Source: Anadara kagoshimensis (Eukaryota; Mollusca; Bivalvia; Arcoida; Arcidae). Taken from it: a stretch of 64,000 nucleotides of DNA. The stretch is taken from positions 42,299,843-42,363,842 of the forward strand of contig CM037867.1 in NCBI GenBank assembly GCA_021292105.1. Reading direction: 5' to 3'. A model generated the notes under the pieces. That model had not been told where the DNA came from and did no database searches. It was given only the letters and a program-made list of their open reading frames with translations. Positions 9,176 to 36,700 of the stretch are shown here, in pieces (positions within the stretch are counted from its first letter, which is position 1; each line of letters opens with the position of its first letter). Both the position numbers and the translations under genes were made by a program.

Positions 9176-12100
9176 GTAAATACATTGTGGATTATAATAC
9201 CTTTTTCAAGAGTTATCTCCCTTGTATTTATACCTTGGTACATTTTAAGGTAATAAAGATTCAGAAATTTTATATTAATTTTTCAACATCTTGGTTTCAC
9301 AATTTTGGTCAAGGCACTACCGATGAGGAATTGCATTCCGAAACGACCGTCTAGTGCTGTAAAATTAAAACTGCTAAAATATGTAATATAACAGTATAGT
9401 AAACTGGGACATCTAGTGGGTTCTGTTATTTTCGTTTGGAAACTGACTTTGTACCCAGATGTGAAAGTTCTTTAATTGAAAAACAGAGTTGACTTTTGGT
9501 AACGTCAATATGATCAATATGTTTCATGACCTAATTTGGGACGGGATTTAATTAAAGTTTAAAATAAACAACCAGGAAATTTGCTTTGTTAAGACTATTT
9601 AGTTTAGCTTGCATTTGTTTGTTTTGGTTTTGCATCCGGAATAAAAGACACCCGTATCATGATGTAAAAATCGACATTGGATTGTTTACAAAATTTATGA
9701 TATCTCTCGGTGTTTAACCAAAGATATTTTTCTTGGGACCCGAAAGCACAAATTTATGCTAATCATAATTATGACAAAACTTCTACAGTACAAGAGTATG
9801 TTGTTTTTAATCTTGCATTTTGTTTGTTTTAGCTCCCTTGAGTCTACCAGAAATAATTGCCCTCGGTGTGTGTATCCCGCTAATTTTCCTTATTACCTTG
9901 CTATGTGCCATTCTGTGTATATGTTGCCGGAGAAGGCGGAGGGACAGCAAATACCTGGATGACGAGTCGGACAGGTAAGGACTATTAATAATAATAAATG
10001 TATCCAACTTGTACTTTTCCAATGAAGAAAAGGCCCTTCCGTTAATCGTTATCCCCCATTTATTTACACGTACAGGCCACCCAAGGGAACAACCAGTAAA
10101 AGTGATCTTTATAGACAGGAGTAAAGAACAATTGGTATACACTTTTACTGGCCCTTAAAGGCAAGTGGCCCTTATATAGAGGTGGCCTTTATGGCAGGTT
10201 CTACTGTATAACAACTTAATATTTGTTTCTCTGGTAAAGTTTTCTCAACGCATCTTTTTGCGAACACAGAACCAAGTTTCTCGAAGCTTGCAATTGATTG
10301 GCTTAATCAATGATTAACACACAGATTTAAAATATCAATTAAAAATCATCTTAGCATCGATTTTTAGCCATGTGGTTCAATTTGTTGAAATTCTATTCAA
10401 CGGAAACATGTCAGTCAAATACTGTTAATGTTTATCCTACATAAATGGTAATGCTTCAATTCTACTGTTTCATACAGGATTTTGATTGGTTAGATCTTTT
10501 GCGTTATTTTTGCATGAAGTAATTGGTTCTTAGTGACGACATCTTATTATGGACGAAGCACAATGACATTTGAATTCCTACGCCATAAAAAGCCTGTAAA
10601 ATTTTGTCATTTAAAGTATTTAAAAACCTTCCTTGTTTAAAATACTTATAGAAGTCAATGTATGTACATGGCCCTTGTGATGTTAAATTGTTGAAGGTGA
10701 TTCACTGATAAACTTCATTTTTATTTAATAAAAAACATCACTGAGCGTTAAGAAAGTGCAGCAGGGCAATGTAGCTCAAGCTTCTTATTCTAATTTTAGC
10801 CTAGCGAATTATTGACAGAACATTTTGTTTATTTTTATTTACAGAGAATCAGCCGGTGACTATGTTTTTACCTCGGCTGTATTACCCAAATTTACATTTT
10901 TCTTTACATTTTTTATTTTTATTTACAGAGAATCAGCCGGTGACTATGTTTTTACCTCGGCTGTAATGCCAAAATTTGTCAGTTTACCATACCTTCAGTA
11001 TTACACTCCAGTTGCTTGGGATAGCGTATCAGTAGAATCAGACGAAACCAATGATGAGCGAGGAAACAAAAAGCGAGGTAAATATTTTGATTGATTGATT
11101 GATTGATTGAATGGGATTTATGTCCCAGTCAAGAATATTTCAAATATATCGAGACCTTACCAGTTGTAGGTGAAATGGCAGAACATATTTTACAGTGCGT
11201 ACAAGGCAATGTGTAGGAATGGTTCGTGTTACGACGCAAATGTCGTGACACGGAGCATCAATTTTAAGGTGATCTCGTCACTTTTCTTTTCTAAATGTGT
11301 TGGCGAAAGAACATTAACAAATTAAAATTCAAGTTTTGGTCAGACCCGGCCAGGATTTAAACCCTGGCCTCCCATATAGGGAGGGAGCACTCTACCACTT
11401 GAGCTACCGTAGTTGTAGGTACATATTTTACTTTCTACCGGTGGTCAATTAAAATAGTTAGCTATGACCAAATGACATATTGATTATTACGATTAAAAAT
11501 TATCAAATCTTTGGTTAGGTAAACTGCTCGAATTAACATTTTTTACCTTATTAAAAAGGAGAGATGGGGTGGGGGTGGGGGTCGGTGACTGAGTGGTCTT
11601 AAGCACTTACAGGTCACTTTGTGTGGGCTCTCGTGATCACCAGCTAGGTTCGAATCCCACTCGGGATAAATCCTAGTGTAAGACAATGTGTCATTTTCCT
11701 AAAAAAAAACGAAGGTATACTTCCTAATGCAAAATACTTCTTTAGCTTAATTTGGTAAAATATATTTTGGTCCTTTTGGGTGTCTTTTCAACATCTTGAA
11801 AAATTGAATTCACAATTTTGGTCCAAGCACTACTGATGAGGAATTATATTCCGAAATAGCCGTCTAGTGCTGTAAAATTAACACTGGTATAAGATGTAAT
11901 TTACTTTCATGTCGGTAATTTTCTACGGACACTACGGTGTCCTCTACTGTCCCAGAACTGACTGCCTCGACATACGTAAAAGAATCTGGATTGTGGCTTA
12001 ATTCCATTTCAATCCACTCCACCTTGTTAAAGCGTTCAGTAATTAATACTTTTAGTAGACACGTGCATGTGTCAATGTGGGGTGTGGTGTGTGGTTGGGA

Positions 12101-12802
12101 GTATTTACCACTTGTTTTAGAAATAATGAACCCGAAAAGGCTCTTTTAAATGTAAACAATAAATTATTATTTTTTTGTATTTTCAGGTCAGGATACTAAA
12201 AACCCAGTAAGTACAAATCTTTATTTTAAAACCTTTAAGGTCAGTCGCTACACTTGAACATTCTTAAATAGGTTTATGATCAGTGCAATGTGTTGCCATA
12301 CAAAACATTATCAGAGATAAGCCCGAAGTAATTCTTCTTCTTCTTCTTTTGAGAAAACATAGGCCATTTTAATTTATTTTCCTTTTTTAAAATTATAGTT
12401 TTTTTTACCTTATTTTAAACTTTGTTACATTTGTTAATGTTATATGTTCTTTATTGAACTGTTTATTACATGCCAAATTCCATATTTTTTAACATAAGTG
12501 GTTCGTTTAGTTTTGCTTAGTGTTTTTATCTGATATTTAGGTAGGTTTTTGTGGATAGGATAGACGCTTAAGAAAGAAAAAAATCTGGTGCAACCCAATT
12601 AACAAATCCGCAAACTACTCGGAATTTGATAATTTGAAAACCCTCATCAATGCAACAAACTAGCTACAAACATAGGAGGGCCACTTATGTTCATATAATG
12701 ATGAATTCCATATAGCAGTCTTTTCAAAATCTATATCTGTAATTTCAGTTCCAGATAAAAAGACCAGTGACAGAATATTCACCTAACCCTGTGTATTTTT
12801 GA
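1..12802 (+). CDS. Gene A: transmembrane mucin, 5' partial, five exons in window
   Basis: The spliced model has exons 1..9175, 9833..9974, 10929..11077, 12187..12206 and 12749..12802. All junctions are GT-AG and the phases join without a break (1, 2, 1, 0). The product is a type-I-like membrane mucin: about 3058 residues of Thr-rich extracellular repeat, a single membrane helix, an Arg-rich stop-transfer (RRRRRD), and a tail of roughly 90 residues ending in EYSPNPVYF. The start and signal peptide lie upstream of the window, because exon 1 is open from base 1. Membrane mucins of this layout carry dense O-glycans on Thr/Ser and sit on epithelial surfaces; that role is inferred from composition. 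The membrane and tail part is paralogous to gene B on the opposite strand. No SEA or EGF module is visible here. A donor-like GTAAGT after the stop (12812) suggests an intron in the 3' UTR. I cannot assign a named orthologue. Confidence 0.85.
107..1630 (+). repeat. Coding 21-bp repeat, TTSDSTA type
   Basis: About 70 units of 21 bp, typically ACA ACC AGT GAT TCA ACT GCA (TTSDSTA). Variants include TTSDVAT at both ends and inserts reading SDSTATTTSGVTT. Most differences between units are single bases. Every unit supplies four to five potential O-glycosylation sites and one Asp. Confidence 0.85.
1630..8700 (+). repeat. Coding 21-bp repeat, TTTTEAA type
   Basis: About 330 units of 21 bp, consensus ACA ACT ACA ACT GAA GCT GCT (TTTTEAA). 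The two positions after Glu vary between a few classes: AA, VP (GTACCT), AP (GCACCT), AV/VT and, in one block at about 4321-4510, DAA written GACGCGGCA or GACGCGGCG. Thr codons vary freely between ACA, ACT and ACC. Local higher-order repeats are present, for example an 84-bp unit at 4744-5248 and a run of VP-type units at about 7070-7440. Units of 18 or 24 bp occur rarely and always keep the frame. Confidence 0.88.
8820..9175 (+). CDS. Membrane-proximal end of the mucin exon
   Basis: The heptad pattern decays here into mixed TTTDAATTTDNVTT segments. The unit ACAACTGATGCTGCTACAAC followed by TGACAATGTTAC recurs about five times at 8915-9080. After that come 90 bp without repeats ending in the splice donor. 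DNVTT contains N-glycosylation sequons (N-V-T), which the main array lacks. This is the juxtamembrane stem; no SEA cleavage module is recognisable in it. Confidence 0.75.
9176..9832 (+). other. Gene A intron 1 with a dispersed-repeat fragment
   Basis: The intron runs from GTAAAT to TTGTTTTAG. Positions 9277-9395 hold a 5'-truncated copy of a dispersed repeat also found at 11710-11910 and 26468-26672; its shared core is CCGTCTAGTGCTGTAAAATT. The rest is AT-rich and shows no gene or regulatory motif that I recognise. Confidence 0.7.
9833..9974 (+). CDS. Gene A transmembrane exon
   Basis: A 142-bp exon flanked by TTTTAG and GTAAGG, joined to exon 1 as G|CT (Ala). It encodes APLSLPEIIALGVCIPLIF, continuing LITLLCAILCICC, then RRRRRDSKYLDDESD. 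The hydrophobic stretch is about 24 residues and is bounded on the cytoplasmic side by two Cys (possible palmitoylation sites) and five Arg. The IxLGVxIPL core matches the membrane exon of gene B (GLGVGIPLAF), and the exon ends with the same split Arg codon after an acidic (D/E)xxD run. This alignment is the main evidence that the two genes are paralogues. Confidence 0.9.
10820..10987 (+). repeat. 84-bp tandem duplication of an intron-exon junction
   Basis: Positions about 10820-10903 and 10904-10987 are a tandem pair. Each contains the same polypyrimidine tract, the acceptor ATTTACAG, and the first codons of the exon (ESAGDYVFTSAV). The two acceptors (exon starts 10845 and 10929) are exactly 84 bp apart, so both are in frame. 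Using the first adds 28 residues, including the Phe-rich LPKFTFFFTFFIFIYR. Confidence 0.9.
10929..11077 (+). CDS. Gene A cytoplasmic tail exon 1
   Basis: A 149-bp exon, acceptor ATTTACAG and donor G|GTAAAT. It encodes R-ESAGDYVFTSAVMPKF, then VSLPYLQYYTPVAWDSVSVE, then SDETNDERGNKKRG. The equivalent gene B exon encodes THDHEGFFTSGITPKF, then a YYSP..WD motif and SDDTN, so FTS-PKF-YYxP-WD-SDxTN is conserved. The start at 10929 rather than 10845 is chosen because it gives the same spacing as gene B. The function of the tail is unknown; it is rich in acidic residues and Tyr. Confidence 0.85.
11084..11430 (-). mobile_element. tRNA-derived SINE in gene A intron 3
   Basis: Read on the minus strand, a tRNA-like head has an A box TAGCTCAAGTGG (11395-11406) and a B box GGTTTAAATCC (11353-11363). 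A body of about 230 bp follows, ending in a simple-repeat tail (TCAA)n at 11084-11108. The body includes a core (GTCCCAGTCAAGAATATTTC on the + strand) that recurs at about 16545, 25310 and 31385. The degenerate B box and the attached body and tail argue against a working tRNA gene. Confidence 0.75.
11575..11690 (+). mobile_element. tRNA-like element (SINE head, Leu/Ser type)
   Basis: A box TGACTGAGTGG at 11586-11596 and an exact B box GGTTCGAATCC at 11647-11657, with a long segment between them as in class II tRNAs. The ends do not form a clean acceptor stem and the sequence runs on into the dispersed repeat at 11710, so this is most likely the head of a SINE, not a tRNA gene. Confidence 0.6.
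11710..11910 (+). repeat. Dispersed repeat with CCGTCTAGTGCTGTAAAATT core
   Basis: This nearly matches 26468-26672 along its length (GGTATAC start, TTTGGTAAAATATATTTTGG, TTTTGGTCCAAGCACTACTG, CCGTCTAGTGCTGTAAAATT) and matches the truncated copy at 9277-9395. Its 3' half resembles, from memory, a motif that is very common in molluscan SINEs. It follows directly on the tRNA-like head at 11575, so the two may be one element. Confidence 0.65.
12187..12206 (+). CDS. Gene A 20-bp micro-exon (GQDTKNP)
   Basis: Between TATTTTCAG and GTAAGT lie 20 bases that join the preceding G to read GGT CAG GAT ACT AAA AAC CCA. The phase (2 bases in, codon complete out) is the same as that of the 71-bp exon of gene B at 32906-32976, which occupies the same position. 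It therefore replaces VYDNGAMSNFSWDFMYQYVD in the paralogue. The call rests on splice sites and phase only. Confidence 0.65.
12749..12802 (+). CDS. Gene A last coding exon, ends NPVYF-stop
   Basis: The acceptor AATTTCAG is followed by FQIKRPVTEYSPNPVYF and TGA (12800-12802). Gene B has YKIKRPTPEYEPNPVYTS in the matching exon. The conserved NPVY is an NPxY motif. In other membrane proteins NPxY is bound by PTB domains and acts in clathrin-mediated uptake; applying that here is inference. A good donor (CTG|GTAAGT) follows the stop at 12812. Confidence 0.85.
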   Translation, partial: FQIKRPVTEYSPNPVYF

Positions 12803-12811
12803 CATGTTCTG

Positions 12812-13184
12812 GTAAGTTGATATACAGTCAGTGAATGCAGTTTTTTATCGACCGAGTTGAGATTATTGTCAATTATATCGAAGCGTCACCAGCTATAATA
12901 TTGTTTAGGTGATGGATATCTATAACCTGAACATTAGAAAAAATGAATCATGTGTAACAGGGATCCACACTATATGCTTAGCAATAGAATGATCACGAAT
13001 ATCACGGTCAATCCAGGTTGGGATCCAACCCTCGGCACCACATATTATATATATATTGCAAGTCATTGTTCGGAACTTAAGTTTCTTTCAAATTGTAATC
13101 GACGACCAAAAAATTGCACACAACAACAAAGGAAGAACAGACAAAACAATAAACACAACATTTATATAAAACAAACTATGGAAT
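12812..13184. other. Start of intergenic region or 3' UTR of gene A
   Basis: No convincing coding exon is visible. A polyadenylation signal for gene A cannot be placed with confidence; AATAAA-like strings occur at about 13149 and about 13728. Confidence 0.4.
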
Positions 13185-13217
13185 GGAATTAAAGAAGGTC
13201 CATGTTTAAATCACAAT

Positions 13218-13253
<36 letters not shown>

Positions 13254-13370
13254 GAAGAAAAAACTTTGAGAACTGGCAAGTAAGCAAAGCGCGTGAACTT
13301 CACAACCGGTTGAGACCGGTGCTTCTAAATAGTAAGTTTAGCTAGCTACACCCGCCACATGTGAAATATT
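13185..13370 (+). repeat. Dispersed family P copy with internal poly(A)
   Basis: CCATGTTTAAATCACAATC leads into an A run at 13219-13252, then AAACTTTGAGAACTGGCAAG, a GTGAACTTC segment, ACCGGTGCTTC, and TAGCTAGCTACACCCGCCAC. The same order of motifs occurs at 21480-21620 and 61120-61320 (+), about 48030-48150 (+) and 25740-25900 (-). The family encodes nothing visible. Confidence 0.65.
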
Positions 13371-13894
13371 TAAACATTTTTACAACAATTATTACAAAAA
13401 TATTGAAGAACTCTAAAATTATTTATTTATATTATTATTTAATTTTTTTTTATTCAACTTTTAGCTATTTAGCTTGGTGACCATATCCAGTATTATTATC
13501 CATAGCAACGGTCGCGTGCCTGTGACTCGGTCTGTGTTCCTCTGAATCAATGAAGCGGAAATTTTTGACAATGGCTGGCCATATGGATGACATAAATTGA
13601 GGAAAAAGAAACCAATAGTCTGCCGGATTCGAGTACATTTAAAACGTGGTGTTAGCAGAGGAACAAGCTAAGATTCAGCTGACGGGATGGTTCAGATATA
13701 CATTGTATTCTGTCTGTGTTTCGTAAAGAAAATAAACTCTTGCACTCCTATGGAGAATTAAATATTTTAACTTATATATATAATTTGGTGCTCTGTGAAA
13801 ACCTGTTACCTCATTCAGTGTCTTTCGTAATGTAGGATCAGTAGATGCAAATAGGGCATAAATGTACTTCCATCACGCCACAGCTTTGATTCAT
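13371..13894. other. Intergenic, no feature recognised
   Basis: AT-rich, with short low-complexity stretches around 13400-13460. I see no open frame with splice support, RNA gene or clear repeat. Confidence 0.5.
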
Positions 13895-14280
13895 TATATG
13901 TGATGTACGTCATGTCACTACACAGGATGTATGCGGTGTACGACTTTTCGTCACAATACAGAATGTACGTCTTCAAAATATTTGGTGCAATACTTCACAA
14001 TATGTGGTGTACGTCTTTACTTCATTTTGTATGTGGTGCACGTTTAAAATTATTATATGTGGGGTACGTCTTTACTGTATGTGGTGTAAGTGTAACTGGT
14101 GCCACTAGAATCATTGATTCACTATGTGTGGTGTACGTCTTCACAATATGGGTGTACGTCTTTACTGTATGTGGTGTAACTAATGCCGCTACTAGAAACA
14201 TTGATTCACTGTGTTTATTATATGTGGTGTACGTCTTTACTGTATGTGGTGCAAGTGTAACTGATGCCACTACTAAAATA
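13895..14280 (+). repeat. Degenerate tandem repeat, TATGTGGTGTACGTCTTTAC
   Basis: The motif TATGTGGTGTACGTCTTTAC recurs about ten times at irregular spacing. A longer unit holding GTAACTGATGCCACTA..ATTGATTCACT occurs three times (about 14090, 14180, 14255). The long open frame through it is a product of the repeat. Confidence 0.7.
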
Positions 14281-14340
14281 ATTGAATCACTATTTATGTA
14301 TGAAGGTTATGTTTGTGGTCTGAATAAAGTATACAGTACA

Positions 14341-14484
14341 TACCTGTCCAAAGTTTAACACTTATGTAACTAATTAGTGCTGAATCGGCACACCATCTCT
14401 GTCACTAGTTATCCATATTTCGACTACTCTGCTGTTAAGTTTCGACTCCCTTTCGACAGCTCAGTGTTAAACTTTCGACAGGTC
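14341..14484. mobile_element. Small TIR element (family M1, copy 1)
   Basis: Left end ACCTGTCCAAAGTTTAACAC and right end GCTCAGTGTTAAACTTTCGACAGGT are inverted copies of each other. The interior, about 100 bp, is non-coding. A second copy with the same ends lies at about 19601-19770. Size and structure fit a MITE. Confidence 0.65.
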
Positions 14485-15189
14485 GACAGGTAAATTCGTT
14501 TATCATTTGATATGTAAACGTCATAATGTAGTGACAGTGTTGAGGTGTCTTTCATGAGACTATGCATGAACATAACTAAGTATAGGTTTAGTAATACTCA
14601 CATATACAGCTAATGAAAGTTGTCTCACAGCATTATATTCACTAGCTTTCATACTCTCATGAATAGCATTAGAGAACTGACCCTTGAACCGTACGTGGTG
14701 GATAAAAAAAATAGAAAATGTTGTTTTTATACATGTTTTATTGGAAATTGATTTACGTACCTATATATTGCTATGGTTACAATGTCTAAATATTTGTGGT
14801 TATTGATGTGACAATCCGATTCTAAGCATTAAAAAGAACGTTTAGGAATATCGTGTGTGTATGTGCGCGCGCGCGCGTGTGTGTGTTATTTTGACATAGA
14901 AATCCAAGATTAATTATGACATTTGTGTGTTAATATCGTTATATATATATAGGGGTTATTTTAAAATATACCCATGGTGCTGCTGCTATTTTGTTATTTT
15001 AAATTTTATACTGTGGTTCAGAGTTACTCTGTACACGTGAATCAGTCATTTTTTGTGCAATAAATAAAATTAAAACAATGTATAATCGTTTTTTATTTAC
15101 TTTTCTTTACTTGCATGTAGTTTTTTAATGTGTTAATATATACATGTCCAATGTACGTGTATTCAATGTTCTTTTTAGACCAGTCACTG
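14485..15189. other. Intergenic with a GT/GC dinucleotide tract
   Basis: A (GT)n(GC)n tract of about 35 bp lies at 14850-14885. Otherwise the stretch is AT-rich with nothing recognised. Confidence 0.5.
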
Positions 15190-16460
15190 TACTCAGAGCA
15201 TTGTATAGTTATCTCAGTCAGGCATGTCACAATCGAGAGTTTTACAGGTTGTGGCACAATAGGTTTGTTAAAGTCAGATGTTCCCTGGTGTGTCAAAGTC
15301 AGGTTCACAAGAGTCAGAGGTGTCATTTAAGATGTGTTGAAGACAGGGTGTTGCATTAATATGTGTCACACATAGGCGTAGGAGCAGGGGGCCAGCGGGG
15401 GCCAGCGGGGGCCGGCCCCCCCCCCCCCCCCAATGTCAGAGAAGGGGGGGGGCCAGGCCCCCGCAATATATTGTGTGAAATTTTGTATTATGCTAAAAAA
15501 GAAAGAAAGAAAGAAAGAAAGAAAAAAAACAAGTGCTTTAACAGGAATGTCCATCTGGTAACCAATCAATTACCAATTTCATCATTATACTTGTAAAAGG
15601 GCGTCAAAATTTTCCGGGGTACCCCATATCCAGTGGCGGATTCAGCGGGGTGCGTAGGGGGAATACGTACCCCCATCCCCTTTATGTCGCTAATAAGTAC
15701 ATATTGTTTAGCTCAGATTGCACCAGAATGCAGGATTTTTGCGCCACTTTTTCAAATTTTTCCGGGGAGCATGCCCCCGAACCCCCCTAGAAGGTTCGAG
15801 CCTTAAAATCTCACATTATACGCCCCCTTTCTAAAATTCTGGATCAGCCTCTGATATCCATCTCCAAATGAGAGGGTAATTATGGAACGTGTGTCATATC
15901 GTTATTTTATATAATCTTGCCGTGATATCACAGTATTTTTAACCTATCAAAACGATGCACAATACATTGAAAATGCGTCTAGACAGGACTTAGTTTTGAA
16001 AATTTTCCGGGGGAGGCCCCCCGAAACCCCCACCTATGCGAGGAGTTTAGCACCCCTCTCATATACTCTCCCCGCCTCGACATAAGACATAGCTTCGGTT
16101 TGGCCCCCCCCCCCCCAATATTAAAAACCCTCCTACGCCTATGTCACAGTGAGGTGTTTTACAATCAGGTGTTACACAGCTGTAGCCGAGTGTGTCGCAG
16201 TCAGTAACGTCACAATCAGATTGGAACATTAAGGTAGATCAGTCAGATGCGTGACACACACTCAGAGATGTTTTAGAAAGTGTGACACAGTCATTTGTGC
16301 GATGCGCTGCAGTGTGTCACAACCTGGTGTGTCACAGTCAACTATATTGCAGTCAGGTGTGTAGTTGTACATGTAAGGCGTGTCACAGTAGGATGTGTAA
16401 ATATCGGTCAACCCAGTCAATTGTGTCGCAGTCGGTATAATATCGCAATCAGACGTGTTA
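15190..16460 (+). repeat. Degenerate GTCACAGTCAGGTGT repeat split by an insertion
   Basis: Short units around GTGTCACAGTCAGGTGTGT recur at 15190-15360 and again at 16144-16460. The two halves belong to one array interrupted by the TIR element at 15371-16143. Confidence 0.65.
15371..16143. mobile_element. 773-bp TIR element, G/C-tract rich
   Basis: Left end CATAGGCGTAGGAG and right end CTCCTACGCCTATG are perfect inverted copies. The flanks on both sides read TCACA, a possible 5-bp target duplication, though the host repeat itself contains TCACA. The interior holds poly-C and poly-G runs, a (GAAA)n tract and two copies of a TTTTCCGGGG..CCCCCGAACCCCC motif. No transposase is visible, so the element is non-autonomous. 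Confidence 0.75.
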
Positions 16461-16514
16461 ATTTTCGCGAAGCTTTTTAAATTATTATAATGAGTTATTG
16501 ATGATGAATTTTAC

Positions 16515-17250
16515 ACGCATGAGTTAAGAGTTGAGTAATGGTGTTTAACGTCCCATTCAAAAATATTTCACTTATATCGAGACGTCACCAGCTATATATA
16601 AGGCAAAGGTGCAGAAATTTGCATTTACACATAGATTTATTGTTTAAAATAAGCAACGTACACCATGACATTTTGTAGAAGCCAACGACAATTGTGAATT
16701 GCTCTTTTGGCGTACGAAGTCCATATGCCGAAGTGGCCTTCCAATTGAAGACCGTAACATGGGCAAGGGTAACTGAACCCTGAACGCCTTGTGAATAAAA
16801 GTTAATAATGCCTTTACCATTAGGCAACCAGGGAAGCTGAACCTTAGACACCTTGTTGTAAAAGATATTTAGGCAACAGTAGCCCAGGAGCCCTGAACCA
16901 TAAGCGCCATGTAATTGAAGACTAATTAATGCCTCAACCACTAGGCAACCGTAGTCCAGGGGCAGATGATGGCTATTGTAAGCAATAGAACACCAACTGT
17001 ACAATACAAGACAGAAATCAGGAAATTAAAAAGTCAGAAATAGTATAAGAATTGAGAGAGCGCCCCGAAAGGGCGAGTGGTCACACATCCACCAAGGATA
17101 TAGTTAACCACCTTCCCGTTTGATATCGGAGACAATTCCGACATCTTAGCTATCCTCAATTACAAGAACGGCACGGGAAATGAAATTGATCAACACTGGG
17201 TAATGTTGTGTTATAACGATATCTGATATCACTTCATTGTGGCGTTGTTT
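16515..17250 (-). repeat. Duplicated segment with tRNA-like units, copy 1
   Basis: Positions 16850-17250 are nearly repeated at 18950-19290 (shared GATGGCTATTGTAAGCAATA, CACCAACTGTACAATACAAG, GAAAGGGCGAGTGGTCAC). At 16740-16960, two or three tRNA-like units lie on the minus strand with A-box-like TTGCCTAGTGGTTRAGGCAT. The core shared with the SINE at 11084 is at 16545-16590. Confidence 0.6.
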
Positions 17251-17670
17251 GGTAATTTATTTAAAATCAACTTTATAGATGCATGTTATATGTTATTTTT
17301 AATTTTAATACAAAGATAAAAAATATTTTATTTTTTTTGTATTAATTTTTCCACAGTCTGTTTTGACTCATTGGAATATTTATTAAAATACATTAAAATT
17401 TATTCTGAATTATGGTACTCCACGTAACTCTTCACTACCGCAAAATATTTTAATGAATGGTGAATACAGTTCCAGTTAGAAGACTTACCTGTAGGATAAT
17501 TACAGGTAAAACCAAGTTGACCTGGAGCAAGCCGACAAATAAAACTGGTACAAATTCTAAGAATTTTCACACGATGAGTGCGACACACACACACACACTG
17601 TTCTGCGTAAAAAAACACACACACCTAGATATTGCTCTGCGTAAACACACCCCTAGATATTGGTCTTCGT

Positions 17671-17726
<56 letters not shown>

Positions 17727-17860
17727 TGGTACTAGAAAATAATTTTTGGGTATTGGTATTTTAAGTCTGTTCATACAAGACTTTTTTTTTTTTTTAAATT
17801 TTACATGTAATAATGGAATACTCACGAAATAATTTTGATGTCGACAACACTTCTTATAGT
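17251..17860. other. Intergenic with CA microsatellites
   Basis: CA tracts lie at 17583-17600 and 17672-17724, and a T run of 13 at about 17782. The rest is AT-rich; 17280-17500 is partly repeated at 19330-19540, the continuation of the duplication noted at 16515. Confidence 0.65.
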
Positions 17861-17862
17861 CC

Positions 17863-17920
17863 TGTCATGTGCTACTTTTGAATTTTTATGAAATAATACA
17901 TTCAAAAGTAGCACATGACA
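17863..17920. mobile_element. 58-bp palindromic mini-element (family H), copy 1
   Basis: TGTCATGTGCTACTTTTGAA and its reverse complement flank a short AT centre. GTCC lies directly on both sides (17859-17862 and 17921-17924), a 4-bp target duplication. Copy 2 is at 23631-23689 in the opposite orientation, with GTAG on both sides. Confidence 0.8.
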
Positions 17921-17984
17921 GTCCTGTAATATTATAGCTATAACGATTTTTACACGCATCACATAGAGGAAAGAAGATGGTGGG

Positions 17985-18620
17985 CTAGTGTTTTACGTCA
18001 CATCAACACATTACTTAGTGCACAACTCCTAATCTGTGTTATACTCATTTTTCGGATTTACATTGAATACAGATAGTAGTACCATGGCAAACAGCAACTG
18101 CTAATTAATAAATTACTGATGGTATTGAATTTTAAATGTCCAAGTTTAGAGATTTATAACATAGTGGTTTGTTGTTTTACGTCACATCAACAATTCCACA
18201 GATATGACTGTTAATTACCATTAACGTTACTCCTAATCTGTGTTATACTCATTTTTCGGATTTACATTGAATACAGATAGTAGTACCATGGCAAACAGCA
18301 ACTGCTAATTAATAAATTACTGATGGTATTGAATTTTAAATGTCCAAGTTTAGAGATTTATAACATAGTGGTTTGTTGTTTTACGTCACATCAACAATTC
18401 CACAGATATGACTGTTAATTATCACTAACGTTCATGTGGTGAACAACTCCTAATCTGTGTTATACTCAATTTTTCGGATTTACATTGAATACTGATAGTG
18501 GTGCCATGGCAAACAGCAACTGCCAAATAATAAATAACTGATGATATTGAATTTTAAATGTTAAACAGTTCAGAGATTTAGAACATCAAGTTAAAGAGAA
18601 TGAATTGTTATTTTACGTCA
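17985..18620 (+). repeat. Tandem repeat, about 204-217 bp, three copies
   Basis: TAATCTGTGTTATACTCATT recurs at about 18030, 18234 and 18451, and GTTTTACGTCACATCAACA at about 17990, 18174 and 18378. The third copy has a 13-bp longer spacing and more substitutions. Confidence 0.8.
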
Positions 18621-18679
18621 CATTTCTTATCAGTTTACGTAACATTAACAATTACTTGGCTATGTTCTATGGTTTGCTT

Positions 18680-19560
18680 TGCGACGTCCACGACAAATGT
18701 GCATGGACATTTATTTTTAACAAAGTCGAACCCTGAACTATTGGTTCCTTTAACCACTTGTCAGCAGTAGCTCAGTGAAAGTGAACCCTGACCCATAGAT
18801 TCCCTGTACATGTGATTAACCACTAGGCAACGGTAGTACTGGGAAAGTTGAACCCTGGGAGCTTTGTAATAGCGCAACCACTAGGCAATTAGGCCCAGAG
18901 AAATTGAACCCTGAACCATAGTCACCTTGTGATTTAAGGCAGATGCCTTAACCACTAGATAAACCCCGGACCATAATATAAGCCGCCTTGTGATTTAAGG
19001 CAGATGCCTTAATCACTAGGCAACTGTAGCCCAGGGGCAGATGGTGGCTATTGTAAGCAATAGAACACCAACTGTACAATACAAGACAGAAATCAGAAAA
19101 GACAGAAATCAGAATTGTAAAAAGTTAGAAATAGTATTAGTATTGAGAGAGCGCCCCCGAAAGGGCGAGTGGTCACGAACCACCTTCCCGTCCGATATCG
19201 GATATTACTCCGACACCGTACACTATTCTTGTTAAAGAACAGAACGGGAATTAGAATAACTTAACATTGAGTAATGTTGGTTTATAACGATAACTGAAAT
19301 CATTTCATTGTGGTGTCTTTTAGTAATTCATTTAAAATAAACTTTGAAGATGCATGTTATATTTTATGTTTAATTTGATATAAAGATAAAAATTATTTTA
19401 ATTTTTTGGTATCAATATCTACAATAGTTCACTTTGACTTATGGCGATATTTAGTAAAATACAAATAAAATTATTCTTGGTTATGACATTCCACGTAACT
19501 CTTCATTCACTACCCCAAAAATATAATAATGAATGGTGAATACAGTTCGCAGTAGAAAAT
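18680..19560 (-). repeat. Cluster of tRNA-like units plus duplicated segment, copy 2
   Basis: Four or five degenerate units of about 75-80 bp lie in tandem at 18720-19040. On the minus strand each reads CTAGTGGTTAAGGCA...GGTTCAGGGTTCAAYTT, which resembles tRNA A and B boxes. Positions 19020-19290 then repeat the segment of 16960-17240. None of the units forms a complete cloverleaf that I can draw by eye. Confidence 0.6.
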
Positions 19561-19600
19561 ATGCACGACTTACCCGCAGGTCAAATCGCATACAGTACAG

Positions 19601-21470: not shown

Positions 21471-21479
21471 CGAAACAAA

Positions 21480-25739: not shown

Positions 25740-26310
25740 CTACACACGTGGTGGGTGTAGCTAGCTAAACATGAGGTGCTTACCCTTCCGGAGCACCCGG
25801 CCTCACTTCCCTGGTGGAAGGTCATGTGTCCAACCTAACTTGTCAGTTCCAAAGTTTTTACTTTGCTTCTGGATTGTGATTGGGACATGGATTAGTATGT
25901 TCGTTTTTACTTTACTTCTGGATTGTGATTGGGACATGGATTAGTATGTTCGTTTTTACTTTACTTCTGGATTGTGTTTCGGACATGGATTAGTATGTCC
26001 GTTTTTACTTTACTTCTGGATTGTGTTTCGGACATGGATTAGTATGTCCGTTTTTACTTTACTTCTGGATTGTGATTGGGACATGGATTAGTATGTTCGT
26101 TTTTACTTTACTTCTGGATTGTGTTTCGGACATGGATTAGTATGTCCGTTTTTACTTTACTTCTGGATTGTGTTTCGGACATGGATTATTATGTTTGTTT
26201 TGACTTTACTTCTGGATTGTGATTCGGACATGGATTAGTATGTCCATTTTTACTTTACTTCTGGATTGTGATTGGGACATGGATTAGTATGTTTATTTTT
26301 GATATGCACA
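25740..26310 (-). repeat. Family P copy expanded into a 49-bp tandem array
   Basis: The inverted family P copy (GTGTAGCTAGCTAAACATGA, CCTTCCGGAGCACCCGGCCT, TTCCCTGGTGGAAGG) ends in about nine tandem 49-bp units, from 25852 to about 26300. The unit is TTTTTACTTTACTTCTGGAT + TGTGATTGGGACATGGATTA + GTATGTTCG. The tandem unit is the terminal segment of the dispersed element itself. Confidence 0.8.
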
Positions 26311-26890: not shown

Positions 26891-28492
26891 TTTATTTATA
26901 AAAGTCTGCATATATATATATCATAAAAATAAATCAGAATATGTTTATATTTGTTTTTTGATTATCAGAATAATAATAATAACAACTTTATTTATCAGGG
27001 ACTTATTATTAACATGAAATATCTTATATTTCTGAAAATTCTAAAATTTCAGAAATAACAAGATATTAAAACAAAATGTTAAAACTCTATATATCTATAT
27101 ACTGACATTAATGCTTACATTTTATAATGACAAATCACAATAATGTAATAAAACAAAATTTGTAATTAAAATAAAAATTTTAACAATTGAATATAGCAAG
27201 ATTTGTTTTAAAGTATATAAGTGCTGAGTTTGTGCTTTACACACACATTTACATACACATATATATGTATAAAACTACCATAACCTAACAGAAAAACATG
27301 AAATTTAAGATATTTTTTTTAAAAAAAAAAAACCTCTTGTGTAAAGAATAAAATATTACAGAATTTTAATTTTCTTAAATTGTGCATATAAAAAGTTAAG
27401 AAGAGATAATTAAAAGAGAACTGTGTATTCCTGCTTTCAATGATTGCTAGCCTTGCTTGCAAAATTAATATCTTGTCCAGGCTAAAAACTAACCAAAAAA
27501 TTTGTCTCATGTTTTGATATAAAAAAAAAAAACCTGAATCTAAATTTACTGACAAAAAAATTCAAAGATTAAAAGAAATCCTTGTGTTATTTTTCATTCC
27601 AAATTGAAAATCGTCATAGAAGTTATTGCACTTCAAAATTGTTTATTTGAAAACTTCAGTTTTAGTCCGGTGACCTTGAACCTGATATTGGTCTTGGACC
27701 AGCCCTATGGATTTCTTGGAAATGTATCTTTTACAATCTTAATGGGCCTAAACAAAACCCTGAAAACAGTGAAAATGTCTGGTCCTGAAGCTGATAGCCT
27801 CAGACATGAAAGCGGTGAAATGGTCTAACACTGATTTTAGAAATTTAAAGCTTATAGAATCAGATAAAAAAGCGATAAATTGGTTTAACAGTGTTCATTC
27901 TAGCAATATGTCACTGTTTTCATTGTAGAAGGGCCATTGGGCCATTAATCTCTTATTATGCAAATGACCCCATTGTTAAGTCCTTAGTGGGTCATATTTA
28001 AAATTACACGAATATAAAAATTCCTCTCTTGAAAAATCTTAAATTGGACATCAGTCAAACCCTGAATTTAGAACTTTTATTAGGCAGTCTAGAAGCTGAT
28101 AGACTAAAGAATTAATGAATACCAACAAAAAGTTGTTTTTAACATAAAATATGACAATTCATTAAAATAAAAGTTGAAAATTTTTTTGACATTAAAATTG
28201 AAACATTAAAGTTACTAAAAGCAGTTAAAAAGTTGAACTATTTTGAACGAGAAACATATATTTATATACATGGCAAGATACTTGGGTGTTTGACGTCACT
28301 ATTTTGTCAACTAACAATTTTGAAAAATTCCAAATTAAAATTGAATAGAAGAAAGTAATTGGGCATTAGTTTAAAAAGTTTCAAAAACTGGAATGTAATA
28401 AAACAATCTGCATAAACAGAAAAATATCAAAAACATAATTTTTTTTTTATAAATTTCAATGACAGAAAGACAAAAACAACACTTATTTTTTT

Positions 28493-28524
<32 letters not shown>

Positions 28525-28535
28525 TCTCTCTCTTG

Positions 28536-28578
<43 letters not shown>

Positions 28579-30769
28579 ATTCTCTGCATAGCTTTTGATA
28601 TTTGTGATATAACAACTACATGTGTACAAGTGGTTTGACAATGCTGCTGAAAAACTTCTTAATGCTGACATGAATGACTGGAAATGTTTTAATGCAAATG
28701 GAAGTAAAATGAATGGACCTAATAAAATCTATAAAATAGTATGTTTAAAAGAGACCATATCAACATGTCAAGATCTATCAAAAGTTTTTTTTTTTTTTTA
28801 AATGAAATAATTTTAAAAAAAATTAAAATATCAAAATAAATTTCTAATATTAAATGTTAATATCTACCTTTTTGTTGTGTAATAATTCTAAGTCCTATTA
28901 AATTTTTTTTAATAAGAAATTTCTTACTGATTTCCAAACACTTTTTTAAATCTTGTTGGAACACTTGAACCACAAATCAGCAACAGTTAACCATGGTAAC
29001 ATACATACATGCATAAAAATTACACTATTTTACAGAAAATATTATATAAATATATAATCTCTTTAAAAATAAAAAACCATTTTGACAACAATAATGAACA
29101 ATGAATGACGTTAGTTTATATATAATATAGGTATATATGTGTATATAACAATATTGCAATAATAGATAATATACAAAAATATGAAATTTTGTCATCAATA
29201 TGTTTGTTACTATAAATACTCTATACAACTGACTTTATGTATCCCACTATACAAGTAACCATAACCCTACCACCCCCAACACACAATAGACTCATCCAAA
29301 ACTCAAAAAAAATGGAATGATCTATTTGAAATTAAGGGGTCAAAGGTATTAATAACAATATAAGTGCTTATAGCACATTAATTAATGTTTTATGAATGAT
29401 CATAATGCTGAAATGTACAATTATGATTATGAAAATAAATCACATGACACACCATATGTTTTCACATGACATATCACATGGCACATCATGACACACCACA
29501 CTGCCATGTCATATGACTCATCAATGATGTCACATGAAGTTGTATTGCCATGCTAGATCATAAGGCCATAAAAACACTTCACATGACTATGTCACAATTG
29601 ATAAATAATATGGCGCATAACAATGCATATCAAATCACATGACTGTGTCACTCGTGTCATGATACACCATACGGTGTCACATGATCCATTACATGGTATT
29701 ATGCATCAAAAACAAGGCAGTGCTACATGATTTCAACAAATGACATTTTTATATCTTCCTATGTTACACAGATATTTATCTTATTGCCAAACAAACTAGA
29801 ATAAAAAATTCTTTGGCACTAAACCGATGGTTCGTTTGGAAGACATTTCTTTCAAAGTCTGTAACCATGGTAACATCAACAATAGACTTCAATTTCTCAA
29901 AACTGTTCAAGTTGGACAGCAGATATATTTTCATGATGCTATTATTATTTAAAGCTTTCTGTATCCGTAATGCCAGTTACCTAACTAAGAAATCCAAAGA
30001 AACATTTCTTATTTTACCAAGGAGAAATTGTCTCCATTCCAATGGAAGAGTTGTTTCCCTTTCAAGAGTGAATTATCTCCCTTAGATATTTGCTCTTTTT
30101 AATAATACCCATATTTAACAAGTTAAATAACAGAAACTGATATATTTGAGATCTGATATGAAACAAAATAAAATTCAATCTTCATATTTGATTTTCTAAA
30201 TGTATATGATATAAAAGTTTTTATGTAAAACATATAAATTTTGATCAAAATCTTGCCCTCAATGCGTCATCTATTTTTACATCTTCGAAATTCCATAGAC
30301 AGGTAAGTCTGGTATGTTCTGCTGTTACTGCCTGAGTGTACAGTGTCTTGTTCTTCACTGATAATGATATATGACATACACCGTGTATACTTATCAACCC
30401 ATATAATAAATTATATTAGTTTTTCTTCACCCATTGTCTCTTACAATGAAGAGTCATTTTAGATAAGTCACAGTCCTGTAATACTCTTTTTTCCCATACA
30501 TTTGGAAAGAACATCAAACACCTTTTTCAGTTTTCATATACGTATATATTTCAACTTTAAAGATGTCTTTCACAATTTTCATGTATATATATATGTTTTC
30601 CTTGGATACGGCTAACTTTTACAGTAAATTGTTCAGTATTGAAGGAATTTTATGAAAATTGTTTTATTTCATCTGGTGGTGTTTTGGTTAACTATATGAC
30701 ACCCTGTTTATTTGTAGATTTGTCATGGAATCTCATTACTTAAATGTCTTATCTAAACTGTTCACTACA
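26891..30769 (-). other. Possible 3' UTR of gene B
   Basis: This 3.9-kb stretch differs from its surroundings. It is strongly AT-rich, nearly free of the dispersed repeats found elsewhere, and has only one microsatellite, (TC)n(AC)n at 28494-28579. On the minus strand it follows the candidate last coding exon directly. It ends with AATAAA (26891-26896) and a T/G-rich TTATGGTTTGTTTTTT downstream. A degenerate CACATGACA-type repeat lies at 29440-29720. No coding frame is supported. Transcript data would decide. Confidence 0.35.
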
Positions 30770-30796
30770 TTATGCGGCAGATCCCTGGTTTTTCCT
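30770..30796 (-). CDS. Gene B candidate last coding exon (RKNQGSAA-stop)
   Basis: A strong acceptor (TTCTCTTTTATTTTATTGCAG) is followed in phase 0 by RKNQGSAA and TAA. It would accept the phase-0 donor TCC|GTAAGT at 32130. If that donor is not used, translation instead reads through to VSI-stop at 32118. Splicing is preferred because of the consensus donor and the match of the upstream 18 codons to gene A. Confidence 0.45.
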   Translation of the reverse strand, partial: RKNQGSAA

Positions 30797-33700
30797 CTGC
30801 AATAAAATAAAAGAGAATGATAAGAATTTGTTGAAGATTTCATAGTAACAAATATACTATTTTGGACAGAGAGGGATACAAATGGCAAGACCTGGTCAGA
30901 CTAGCACAGAATAGAACCAGATGGAGGAGTGTTGTCAGTGGCCTATGTACCTCCCTGGCACCACAGGCATAAGTAAATAGTAAGTAAGTATATATACTAT
31001 TAAGCCAAATTTTGACTGTCAAGTAAACCTCATCTCATGTGAATTTAAAGTGAAATTGACTTCATATAGATTTCACATGTTTTTTTTATTTTATTTTATG
31101 TGAGTTTACCATGAATGAACATTTATGTGAATTTTGTGAAATTCACATTAATTTCATATAATCAAAAGCTTGATCAATGTGATTTTTAAATGTGAAATGC
31201 ATGTTAATTTTGTGTGAAATTTAAGTAAATAAATTTTGGGTGTGTAGATTAAGAATAACATTTTTCGATTAAACCGGAGATGATTAGGTGGGCTATTTAT
31301 AGTAGAAACACAATAGATCATCATTTTAAGTAATTTTTCCACATGCCAATATATTGGATCTTTGTATGACTGAGGCTTTACATCCCAGTCAAGATTATTT
31401 TACTTATCAGTTCTGGGATGGTGCAGGAAACCAGAGTGTCCGGAAAACTACAAATCTTCAGCAAGCAAACTGACAAACAATCCCACACGAATGTATATGA
31501 CAAACTATCCCACACGAATGTATATGACAAACTATCCCACACTAATGTATATGACAAACTATCCCACACGAATGTATATGACAAACTATCCCACACGAAT
31601 GTATATGACAAACTATCCCACACGAATGTATATGACAAACTATCCCACACTAATGTATATGACAAACCATCCCACACTAATGTATATGACAAACTATCCC
31701 ACACTAATGTATATGACAAACTATCCCACACTAATGTATATGACAAACTATCCCACACTAATGTATATGACAAACTATCCCACACTAATGTATATGACAA
31801 ACTATCCCACACTAATGTATATGACAAACTATCCCACACTAATGTATATGACAAACTATCCCACACTAATGTATATGACAAACCATCCCACACTAATGTA
31901 TATGACAAACTATCCCACACTAATGTATATGACAAACTATCCCACACTAATGTATATGACAAACTATCCCACACTAATGTATATGACAAACTATCCCACA
32001 CTAATGTATATGACAAACTATCCCACACTAATGTATATGACAAACTATCCCACACTAATGTATATGCTAAAATGGGATTTAAACCTCACTAAAGTTTACA
32101 AAGAGAGATAAATCATACTAAATACTTACGGATGTATAAACAGGGTTAGGCTCATACTCTGGTGTAGGTCTCTTAATCTTGTACTGAAAAAGAAATAAAT
32201 GAAAAATGTATAATAAAACCTGCAATAGTGACTACCTCTAACTTTTATTAGCGGTGACCTTATGTGGGAATTTGAGTGTGTTATTATTTTCATATATGCT
32301 GGATAATGAAAATTGAATAAAAAACAGTGAAGCATTCATGTAAAGCGAATGCCAGCATTTCTATAAAACTAAACTTAAACTAGAAAATGGGATGATTACT
32401 CACAGTCAGATATTACGTCAGAGGAAGTCCAACTTTGTAAACAAGGCTCATACATCGCTGGAACAATCATGGCAAAGCCACAATTTCATAAAAGGGTGCT
32501 TTCAAATTCTTCATTTTTCAAACCCAAAAGAACCCCACACCTGTAAAACTTCTACTATATTTTGCCATCTTATGGCTGAAATAAAGATTTTTTTCAAGAT
32601 GTTGCTACCCTTTTACAAACACCAACAAATGCTCATAGATTTAATATGCTTAGGACGGCATTTTTATTAAAGGGGAGGAGTGTGGTATGTTTAAATTTTA
32701 ATTACCGGTATTTACTTCTACCTAAATCACAAAAGAAGTTTAAATGAAGCGTTAACAAAACATTCAATATGATGAAATGAACTATTTAAATTAAAGCTGA
32801 CAACTCTTATATTAAAATCAAATTTTTCTACATAAATTACCGTAAGTTTTCTGTTCAGTGGAAATTACCATTTAAGAGAACTTTGTTGCTATTTAAATGC
32901 CTTACCTGTTCTGAAGGATCTACATACTGGTACATAAAATCCCAGGAGAAATTTGACATTGCACCATTATCATAAACTGTAAAGGGAAAATATATAAATT
33001 CTAAATACTAATCTACTATAACTCTTTAATAAGCTGTAAAATGCAAAAAATGTAACTTTATGCTAGATAACAGACACCATTGCTGAGATTTAAAACTTTG
33101 CACTATGGAACCAAATCTCCAAGCATATATATAGCAATAACACTAACTATGCATAATAAAACAAAACTTGCATGAATAATGCTTACAGTAAATGACGATA
33201 TAACTACACACTAAATCAAATCTCTGGATGGCTTCATATCAAATCTCAGAATGGCTTCATGTTAATATCTTACACATTTGTTGGAATACCATATGACGAT
33301 ATAACTACACACTAAATCAAATCTCTTGATGGCTTCATATCAAATCTCAGAATGACTTCATATTAATTTCTCACACCTGTGACATGGAAATCCCGCGATT
33401 TTACCCATGTGGGATTTCCTTGTCTCACCCTTGGGTTGAGACAGGCTACACGTCAAATTTCCCGCATAGTTATACCTGCTCTGGATTCATCGTTGAAAGG
33501 ACTTAATAAGCTGAGAAAAGTTCCGAAGTCAACCAACAATTTCTCAACGTCACAATCACTTACACACGCTAAACTGATGACATCATAATCCTTTTATGTG
33601 AGAACGTCAACAAAAATTGATTACGTCATTTCCACCATGCACGGATGGTGACATGAAAACTTAACATTTTATGTAATTTTATGTTTATTAATCATGTTTT

Positions 33701-36700
33701 ATGTTGCAAATGTGTGAGAAAAAGAATCCTACACCGGTAACAGGGTAAGACAGAGATATCTCAAACTCGGATGAATATTTTCAATGTCCAGAACTCGCTA
33801 AAGCTTGTTATGGACAAGAAAATATTCATCCTCGTTTGAGATATCTCTGTCTTACCCTGTTACCGGTGTAAGATTCTATTAGTCTTACACATACGTTGGA
33901 ATACCATAGGTGATTAATTGATTGAAGGGATTGAATGGAGGTTCTACATCCAAGTGACAAGCCACTTAGCCACATATTAAAAGTTTTCAAGAGTCTGTGA
34001 ACTTAGCCACATATTTAAACTTACCATAAAAATCTTTACCAGGATACATATCAAACTGGCCACCTCTCTGTTGTTTTCTCCTGCCACCATTTGTGTCATC
34101 AGAGCCAGTATCATCATCATCCCAGCCTCCAGGTGAGTAGTAGGGAGGTTGTCCCCAGGAACCAAATTTGGGAGTAATACCACTTGTGAAGAATCCCTCA
34201 TGGTCATGAGTTCTGCAAAAAGACCAAAATATGATTTATTACAGAACATCTAATGATACAAGCAAATTCAAATTCATTGAATTAAGATCACCCACCAGCA
34301 GGTTTCTTTTGTGATTTGCACTTAATTCAAAGAACCATCACTCTGAGAAAAAAAGAGCAAACCAACTCAAGTTAACGATATTGCCCATCTCCTCTCTATG
34401 TTTATACCTTGCACCAAGTTTTGGGATATAGTGTTCATAGTTTTGGAGAATTAGCACAGACAAGAATTTCGGATGAACAGATATACCCCTCTTTTTTTTC
34501 TATAATATGGATTTTGTCGGTTGATTCATTTTATAATTTCATCCCAAGGTTCTTTTCCCCAAAATTGCCAGAAAGGTTCCTACACACTTATCTCAGGAAT
34601 ATTCAGAGTGGTGTTTTACTACTCTCTTTTGTAAAATTATTTATAGTTCAATGATGGTGGAAAAAACCTGAGTGTCCAGAGAAAACCGGAGTGTTCAGAA
34701 AAAAACCCGAGTCTCCAGAAAAACCGCCAACTTTTGGAAAATGAACAAAGACTAGGCCTGTCACATAGACTACAAGCTGTGACATTTCAAAAGTGTCCCG
34801 AAAGGAACTCCAACTGCGAAATCTCCAACAATATGCATGATCAAAATACGAAACAGCCAATGGCACATCTAATCCAATGAAAGATCATTCCTGAGAAATT
34901 TTTATAAAGATCTGTGAAATATTTTTTGATATAAGTGGCAGACAAAATGGAGTAAATACTTCATTTAGAGGACAAAATGTTTCAAAATGAGCTTTACTGC
35001 CAAGGACATGATATCTATCTGGGTCAACATACCACAAGATACAAGAAACTTCCTTTAGAGGACATAATGTTTCAAGTGAGCTTTACTGCCAAGGACATGA
35101 TATCTATCTAGGTCAACAATACCACAAGATACAAGAAACTTTATTTATTTAAGAAGTAACTTTGAGATTTTTTTGGTTTACCATATTTAGCCCACAAAAC
35201 CGATGTGTTAACTGTATAACTCCACAAAGAGGGTTATACAAAAGTTTACACATCGGATTTGGGGGTTAAAAATGATAAACCAAAAAAATCTGTTATTTCT
35301 TATAATTTAATTAAAAAATAATTTTGCAATTATATATCTATAATTTAAATGACAATTAAAAGTTTTCAAAACTTTACATTCAAATTGCTATCATCATTTG
35401 GTGCATTAATACAAATGACTGATGTAATGAGCTCATGACCATTAACAACTGCTGACTCTGTCATCTTTTCTATTGATCACGTGATCAATGTTGGTTATCA
35501 TAAATAAACTGAAAATGATATTAAAAAGATACCTAGAATTGAATTATTATGGAATTTACCTGTCAAAATCATCAGGTAGATCCTTGCTTCGTTTTTTCAC
35601 CCTCTTCTGATATATACACACTATGACGATAATTAAACCAGCGATGAAAGCTAACGGTATTCCAACACCAAGTCCCACAATTAGTTCAAAATCATCTACA
35701 GAAAAGACAAATTAATTTACATTGTGTCATAAAAATTTTAAAAAATCACTGGCAATGGTATATACCAGTGTGTCACATGATTAATTACATATTACATCAG
35801 TGTTAATTTTACTGCAATAGACATCCGTTTCTAAATACAATTCCTCAATACATTTGTGCGAGATATTAAGTAAAATGTTCAGGTCAAACAATAAAATATA
35901 TGTTTCAAATTTCACTCTCAAAAAATAAACTTTGGTCAAACTTTTTTTGGTAACTTGCGACAAACATAATTTGGCCACACATGGGAAGTGTCTGTATGTA
36001 AAAAGTCCATATTTGTTAAGTCCCATGGCCCATGAGTGGTCTGTACTTAAAAAGTCCATATCTGTAGGGTCCAATGAGTGGTCTGTACTTAAAAAGTCCA
36101 TATTTGTTAGGTCCCATGGCCCATAGGTGGTCTGTTCTTAAAAAGTCCATATTTGTCAGGTCCAATGGCCCATGAGTGGTCTGTACTTAAAAAGTCCATA
36201 TTTGTTAGGTCCCATGGCCCATAGGTGGTCTGTACTTAAAAAAGTACAGTTATTTGTTAGGTCCCATGGCCCATGGATAGTCTGTAAGATAATTATTGGT
36301 AGATAAACTCCAAGCTGTGGTTGCATTTTCTTTATAAAACAAATTTTTATAAAAATCAATAAGGAATACATACCTTTTCTTTCTAGTGCTCTGAAATATG
36401 AGAGGAAAAAAATTAAAATTAGTATTCTTTCAAAATTTTTTATCAAAAGCTGTCCTTAGTCAATCTGAGCATCAGTCTTATTATAATGTTTCTGAGACAT
36501 AAAGTTATAAAGACTAAGGACTACCCCCCCCCCCCCCCCACCCCCTCTTTTGATTGGGGCCTCGATGGCAATGGTCTGAAGCACAGGTATATACAGCATG
36601 TATAGATAACATCACCCCTTGATAACTTTGCAAGCTTGCTTAACACCACACTATTTTGAAATTAAAAAATCCATTTCTTCTTTGTTATTCTTTATAAACC

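Follow-up and report, generated by a model that had tools for sequence, protein, structure and literature searches.

A convergent pair of paralogous membrane mucins with a common tail and different ectodomains in Anadara kagoshimensis

Two genes, A on the plus strand and B on the minus strand, converge within a 64,000-nucleotide stretch of the bivalve Anadara kagoshimensis (assembly GCA_021292105.1, contig CM037867.1, forward-strand positions 42,299,843 to 42,363,842; hereafter the window, position 1 being its first letter), and by sequence they are paralogous. Both are probably type I membrane mucins of one small family, in which an ancestral ectodomain with EGF and SEA modules was kept by gene B and by a further paralog, gene C, and was lost in, or never received by, gene A, and in which the cytoplasmic tail would dock an adaptor. 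A preliminary description of the window had proposed a convergent pair between 9833 and 35695; those two ends are indeed those of the membrane exons of gene A (9833-9974) and gene B (35695-35560). All of the motifs it named can be found in the translations, namely IALGVCIPL/VGLGVGIPL, FTSxxxPKF, YYxP, WD, SDxTN and IKRPxxEYxPNPVY. The exons of gene A and the membrane and tail exons of gene B are listed below; phases were read from the splice sites, and all exon junctions are sequence models.

1 to 9175 (+): Thr/Ser-rich mucin exon of gene A, already open at the left edge of the window, start out of view, ending in phase 1
9833 to 9974 (+): gene A transmembrane exon (IIALGVCIPL...), phase 1 to 2
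10845 to 10928 (+): tandem copy, 84 bases long, of the first part of gene A tail exon 1; carries an acceptor of its own
10929 to 11077 (+): gene A tail exon 1 (FTSAVMPKF...YYTPVAWD...SDETN), phase 2 to 1
12187 to 12206 (+): gene A tail exon 2, 20 bases (QDTKNP), phase 1 to 0, without the FSWDF segment of genes B and C
12749 to 12802 (+): gene A last exon, FQIKRPVTEYSPNPVYF then TGA, with NPxY and a C-terminal YF
35560 to 35695 (-): gene B transmembrane exon (LIVGLGVGIPL...), phase 1 to 2
34025 to 34212 (-): gene B tail exon 1 (FFTSGITPKF...PPYYSPGGWD...SDDTN), phase 2 to 1
32906 to 32976 (-): gene B tail exon 2 (NFSWDFMYQYVDPSEQ), phase 1 to 0
32130 to 32183 (-): gene B tail exon 3 (YKIKRPTPEYEPNPVYTS), phase 0, donor follows
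30770 to 30796 (-): gene B probable last coding exon (RKNQGSAA, TAA), 27 bases

Aligning the translated 3' parts of the two genes, a check that the preliminary description had recommended, gives a likeness far above chance. The membrane and tail segments together score 202 against a maximum of 61 in 5,000 shuffles, while the membrane exon (82), tail exon 1 (88) and the last shared exon (67) were each compared with 5,000 shuffles that reached 44 at most. When the whole window was searched in six frames, the partner exon was the top non-self match for six of six exons, with scores of 67-103 and runners-up at 32-53. The claim of common intron phases is borne out at the splice sites: the membrane exon runs from phase 1 to 2 in both genes, tail exon 1 from 2 to 1 and tail exon 2 from 1 to 0, and tail exon 3 begins in phase 0. 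The middle tail exons are unlike, having 71 bases in gene B (with FSWDFMY) and 20 in gene A. The 84-base duplicate in gene A is in frame and, if used, would add 28 residues. The IKRP exon had been called the last exon of both genes. The gene A model does end there, with NPVYF, but in gene B a GTAAGT donor follows NPVYTS and leads to a 27-base exon with a stop, so that its IKRP exon is probably not its last; a matching donor follows this exon position in gene C.

The duplication looks old, to judge from the codons. The same residue is encoded in 51 of the 118 aligned codons, and the four-fold sites, few as they are, agree in 6 of 16; with so few silent matches beside so many matching residues, the identity of A and B reflects constraint rather than youth. 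At the DNA level, blastn aligns just one of the modelled tail exons, the last shared one (54 bases, 74%, E-value 0.001). A recent inverted duplication was considered and rejected, blastn of the two 3' regions being strong only in non-coding repeat-like sequence. The history first proposed, an inverted duplication followed by ectodomain change, therefore stands in part: the convergent orientation, paralogy, phases and change of ectodomain agree with it, and a second convergent pair, described below, complicates it.

Outside the membrane the two genes differ. In view, gene A has only Pro/Thr/Ser-rich repeats, open over 9,175 bases or about 3,058 codons, with no SEA match, no EGF and no decayed relic of either. 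The 657-base intron before its membrane exon (9176-9832) held no match to the stalk, the SEA-like and EGF-like part next to the membrane in B, among the six best per query. No plus-strand EGF pattern was found in the readable part of the 60 kb to the left of gene A, where the sole Ser-rich match reads as an arginine/serine-rich protein. Gene B has long Pro/Thr/Ser-rich repeats as well (46915-46022 and 53641-53351), and by reading the repeats of A resemble Thr-rich repeats near B. The remaining exons of gene B are as follows.

63819 to 63938 (-): EGF exon, phase 1 to 1
63234 to 63351 (-): EGF-like exon, 118 bases, reading frame interrupted (a skipped exon, an error of the assembly, or decay)
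61465 to 61722 (-): double EGF exon
60268 to 60525 (-): double EGF exon
56766 to 56888 (-): EGF exon
53351 to 53641 (-): Thr/Ser-rich mucin exon
48986 to 49243 (-): double EGF exon
47901 to 47963 (-): possible short Thr/Ser-rich exon, outside the spliced model
46022 to 46915 (-): mucin repeat exon
42145 to 42168 (-): short Thr-rich linker exon
41349 to 41464 (-): SEA-like region, exon 1 of 3
39670 to 39731 (-): SEA-like region, exon 2 of 3
38888 to 39069 (-): SEA-like region, exon 3 of 3, contains GSLLI
36934 to 37045 (-): membrane-proximal EGF-like exon, four cysteines, phase 1 to 2
36374 to 36390 (-): 17-base juxtamembrane exon

All five of the outer EGF exons scanned exceed a Pfam EGF cut-off. 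In both B and C, the membrane-proximal exon encodes four cysteines and drew no match from the Pfam EGF models; it is EGF-like at best. For the SEA-like region, a joint B and C profile was compared with PDB, and the best of its three matches was 2e7v, listed as a transmembrane protease (E-value 0.17), which we take to be a SEA domain. The putative cleavage position reads GSLLI in B and GRLVV in C. The autoproteolysis site of SEA domains has the consensus GS[VIL], and GSLLI in B is presumably the position at which such domains are cut. Of the ectodomain contrast that had been described, the mucin repeats in view in A and the outer EGFs and mucin exons of B are borne out; the SEA region of B lies below the Pfam cut-off, and its membrane-proximal EGF is only EGF-like. 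The frame-broken exon at 63234-63351 could be skipped within the phase 1 to 1 array. Between 38171 and 38958 (-), in the intron that follows the third SEA-like exon, a 121-base tandem unit carries partial copies of that exon's end. Beyond the right edge, at window coordinates 104087-116295 (-), stand two large Thr/Ser-rich exons, the upstream one of which opens with a signal-peptide-like sequence. Lying upstream of B's EGFs, these Pro/Thr/Ser-rich stretches are probably the 5' end of gene B, and otherwise belong to another mucin.

The assembly that contains the window (1.115 Gb, 36 contigs) was searched for relatives. With the membrane and tail of gene B as query, ten matches were returned, comprising four from B, two from A, two from gene C and two that read as chance. 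Gene C lies at 43.34 Mb on the minus strand, about 1 Mb from A and B. Three of its exons make up a SEA-like region, a single EGF-like exon comes next, and the membrane exon and the tail exons follow; in the tail, exons and phases are those of A and B, and the last exon seen reads FRIRRPQPEAEPNPIFG. The stalk of B gave 11 matches, namely four B exons, six of the partial tandem copies within B and the EGF-like exon of C (E-value 0.19). The query from gene A gave nine: four from A (one of them in the 84-base duplicate), two from B and three others (C9, C4 and C16), the C16 match having an E-value of 8. The candidates at C9:13.7 Mb, C3 and C4 were rejected as members of the tail family, since they read as membrane-only, reverse transcriptase and simple repeat, respectively. 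With the A and B queries, no large tail family was found in this genome.

Gene C also shares its EGF array with gene B. The two arrays are collinear for 18 of 22 modules: among the 22 EGFs of B and the 23 of C, the best match has the same rank for 12, is one rank later for six and falls elsewhere for four, one of which ties with the same rank in C. This pairing used pattern-matched modules, without B's frame-broken exon and without the part of B at 50-56 kb. In C, too, the EGFs are preceded by Pro/Thr/Ser-rich stretches; mucin exons between EGFs and SEA, present in B, were not found in C by the pattern used. On the plus strand, a further gene, E, faces C. It has frames that read as EGF-like, a membrane exon with GIPL and the tail phases of A and B; E and C form a second convergent pair beside A and B, so that the arrangement may predate A/B. 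The tail of E is much diverged, and still scores 73 with B and 74 with C, against shuffle means near 31 and with 0 and 1 of 3,000 shuffles, respectively, reaching these values. There are two candidates for its third tail exon, one at 43329088 and a better-matching FRIRRP exon near 43330002. The idea that E is the counterpart of A was not supported, as the A-E tail score of 31 was reached by 907 of 3,000 shuffles and the helix score by 412 of 3,000.

These comparisons qualify the idea that the tail is the conserved part and the functional constant of the pair. The cytoplasmic tails of B and C are alike at 50 of 114 positions and the SEA and EGF-like stalk at 34%; for the EGF modules of B, each set against its closest match in C, agreement is 39-68% (22 modules, each the best of 23 and so biased upward). 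Because the EGFs of B and C are at least as alike as the tail, the idea is only partly right: on these alignments the tail is not the most conserved part but the part that A kept. Since an EGF-SEA ectodomain is common to B and C, and EGFs occur also in E, the most economical history is a loss in A: the ancestor probably had the EGF/SEA ectodomain, and A, which shows nothing but mucin repeats in view, would no longer have it.

Two motifs stand out in the tail. Near its end, NPx[YF] appears as NPVY in A and in B and as NPIF in C; within the last 16 residues it occurs in 0.5-0.7% of 20,000 shuffles per tail. YYTP in A and YYSP in B and C are found in 0.1-1% of shuffles per tail. NPxY motifs are docking sites for PTB and FERM domains; the portion of PMC7729028 available to us reviews the cases of KRIT1, ICAP1 and SNX17. 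Searches of PDB with the tails returned no solved structure beyond chance, and a Pfam and NCBIfam scan of the tail gave nothing above cut-off. Among the literature matches listed, no description of the A/B tail was recognised, which is not proof that none exists.

A working model for the family would begin with an ancestor that had mucin repeats, an EGF array, a three-exon SEA-like region, one EGF-like exon, a GIPL/CIPL helix and a tail ending I[KR]RP...PNPx[YF]. Genes B and C probably retain this plan, whereas of its parts gene A probably has the repeats, the helix and the tail but neither EGF array nor stalk. Outside the cell, the long part with its presumed O-glycosylation would serve as a cell-surface coat, and the SEA-like region in B and C could be a point close to the membrane that breaks under force or protease action. 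The NPx[YF] tail might dock a PTB- or FERM-domain adaptor that controls position, uptake or signalling. In gene A, the same tail response would then serve a plain coat that has neither EGF binding sites nor a break point.

Several observations weigh against this model. Loss in A is preferred to a gain of the modules in B and C by a parsimony argument that draws on few genes, and the 5' end of A lies outside the sequence read. The SEA region is below the Pfam cut-off (19.0 bits in B and 21.0 in C, against 26.4), the end of the region is overlapped by a competing Pfam model, MBG (18.3 bits in B and 15.2 in C, of 23.3), and two frames of E scanned for SEA had no Pfam match. E is also without YYSP and NPx[YF], and the motifs are therefore not universal in the family. 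The membrane exon of C begins in phase 2 rather than 1, because C has no 17-base exon like that of B. When gene A was used as query, the genome search did not recover C, and the top non-self match, at C9:73.3 Mb (E-value 2.7e-4, 25% identity), beat gene B (E-value 0.009); this match was rejected as a family member, since it reads as another membrane protein. The motif on which adaptor docking rests is short. An aromatic residue at -5 is usual in NPxY docking motifs, and neither A nor B has one at -5 from its Tyr. Finally, every splice is a model from sequence.

Other histories for gene A can be set beside loss. An unrelated mucin exon could have captured the tail by exon shuffling, which would make A a chimera instead of a truncated paralog. 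The membrane and tail exons are the sole parts common to A and B, and the junction before the membrane exon is in phase 1 in both genes, like the mucin and outer EGF exons, so shuffling would be permitted. However, the helix and three tail exons are common in order and in phase, and by reading A's repeats resemble those near B. The lack of a decayed EGF/SEA relic in A is not strictly predicted by either history. Overall, a chimera seems unlikely. Slightly less likely again is that A only looks bare, its EGF and SEA exons lying in unread sequence, more than 60 kb upstream, or being alternatively spliced. Part of the upstream sequence is unreadable and gene B itself covers tens of kilobases, but the stalk adjoins the membrane exon in B and C, where A has just the 657-base intron, and the readable left flank is free of plus-strand EGF patterns. 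It is very improbable that A is in decay, with repeats that survive but no longer do anything. Tail exon 2 of A is down to 20 bases and tail exon 1 is partly tandem-copied, as decay might produce; against this, the repeat stays open for some three thousand codons in view and the tail motifs are retained despite the few matching silent sites.

A further reading is a special case of the favored one, that is, of a mucin family with an adaptor-docking tail. It would make A and B junction receptors of the HEG1 type, with a tail that recruits a KRIT1-like FERM protein via its aromatic end and a Rasip1-like FHA protein via YY[ST]P, as counterparts of vertebrate MUC13/HEG1. These neighbours are the closest published parallel, and a suggestive one. 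According to the accessible part of PMC1552070, MUC13 and HEG are adjacent in chicken and mammals and both have Pro/Thr/Ser-rich, EGF and membrane domains, with SEA in MUC13 only; like A and B they are neighbouring genes, and one has SEA and the other none, much as B has a SEA-like region and A none in view, but they share the same polarity and are not convergent. HEG1 retains EGFs, unlike A with none in view, while B and C have more than 20 EGF matches. In the excerpt of PMC5374711, HEG1 has an unknown region of 108 residues in exons 10-12, then an EGF in exon 13, short juxtamembrane pieces in exons 14-15 and the helix in exon 16, a plan close to that of B with its three SEA-like exons, EGF-like exon, 17-base exon and membrane exon. 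HEG1 binds Rasip1 via TDVYYSPTS and the KRIT1 FERM domain via a C-terminal Tyr-Phe, as stated in the available portion of PMC4733052. Its YYSP recurs in B and C, and as YYTP in A, with flanks that differ from TDVYYSPTS. The C-terminal YF recurs in A, whereas the B model continues with TSRKNQGSAA instead, and, counted from the second Y, the tail runs to its end over 48 residues in A and 50 in HEG1. All this is a comparison of short motifs and of exon plan rather than a whole-tail alignment, the papers having given a 9-mer and a 10-mer of the HEG1 tail, and no homology is claimed. YYSP is just four residues long, and the structures listed by PDB for the tails did not include HEG1. A search for KRIT1 by NUDIX_5 had no match, but its controls were equally silent, which makes it uninformative. 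The HEG1-type reading is accordingly a tentative one, possible at best. More doubtful still is the wider proposal that A/B and E/C are non-vertebrate counterparts of MUC13/HEG1, descended from an ancient EGF-SEA mucin whose tail already had a Rasip1-type YYSP and a KRIT1-type aromatic end.

Other mucin systems resemble the pair in part. As described in the accessible text of PMC9578598, the human MUC3 cluster (MUC3A, MUC3B, MUC12 and MUC17) comprises clustered SEA-type membrane mucins with huge repeat exons and a common tail motif, but the motif is a PDZ ligand and not NPx[YF], and the members are SEA-type. According to the same source, SEA-type membrane mucins arose in vertebrates, and SEA mucins outside vertebrates have already been reported in a sea anemone (PMC9080433, seen in part). 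There, the mucin1-like and mucin4-like proteins of Actinia tenebrosa are invertebrate Pro/Thr/Ser-rich proteins with SEA and a membrane segment, comparable with the SEA-like region and helix of B and C; unlike these, they have no order of EGF array, SEA and EGF and no common tail in the portion of the description available. Seen against these systems, the A/B pair appears to be a modestly surprising member of the membrane mucins.

Some features of the surroundings may be recorded here. Minisatellites occupy 57327-59907, 49512-50932, 31471-32066 and 25854-26300, with units of 95, 22, 27 and 49 bases, respectively; the first three sit within modelled introns of gene B. A tRNA scan returned none. 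On the same contig, about 19-25 kb left of the window (+) and next to the mucin genes, are open frames that by reading resemble a glycosyltransferase, presumably a beta-1,4-galactosyltransferase. Farther out, some 44-56 kb to the left of the window (+), lie frames rich in arginine and serine that by reading resemble an SR splicing protein.

For membrane mucins, comparison has mostly been a matter of the ectodomain. In this family the fuller paralog, gene C, points to what stays when the ectodomain changes, namely the helix, the tail exons and NPx[YF]. If the domain assignment and the taxon hold, the SEA-like region of B and C, with its HEG1-like exon plan, would push the origin of SEA mucins earlier. 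Should the HEG1 parallel be real, the origin of the CCM junction receptor would become testable in an invertebrate. If the wider proposal were also true, a coat mucin signalling through its tail would be the ancestor of the HEG1-CCM junction system, and ectodomain modules would have been lost, with the tail kept, independently in two lineages.

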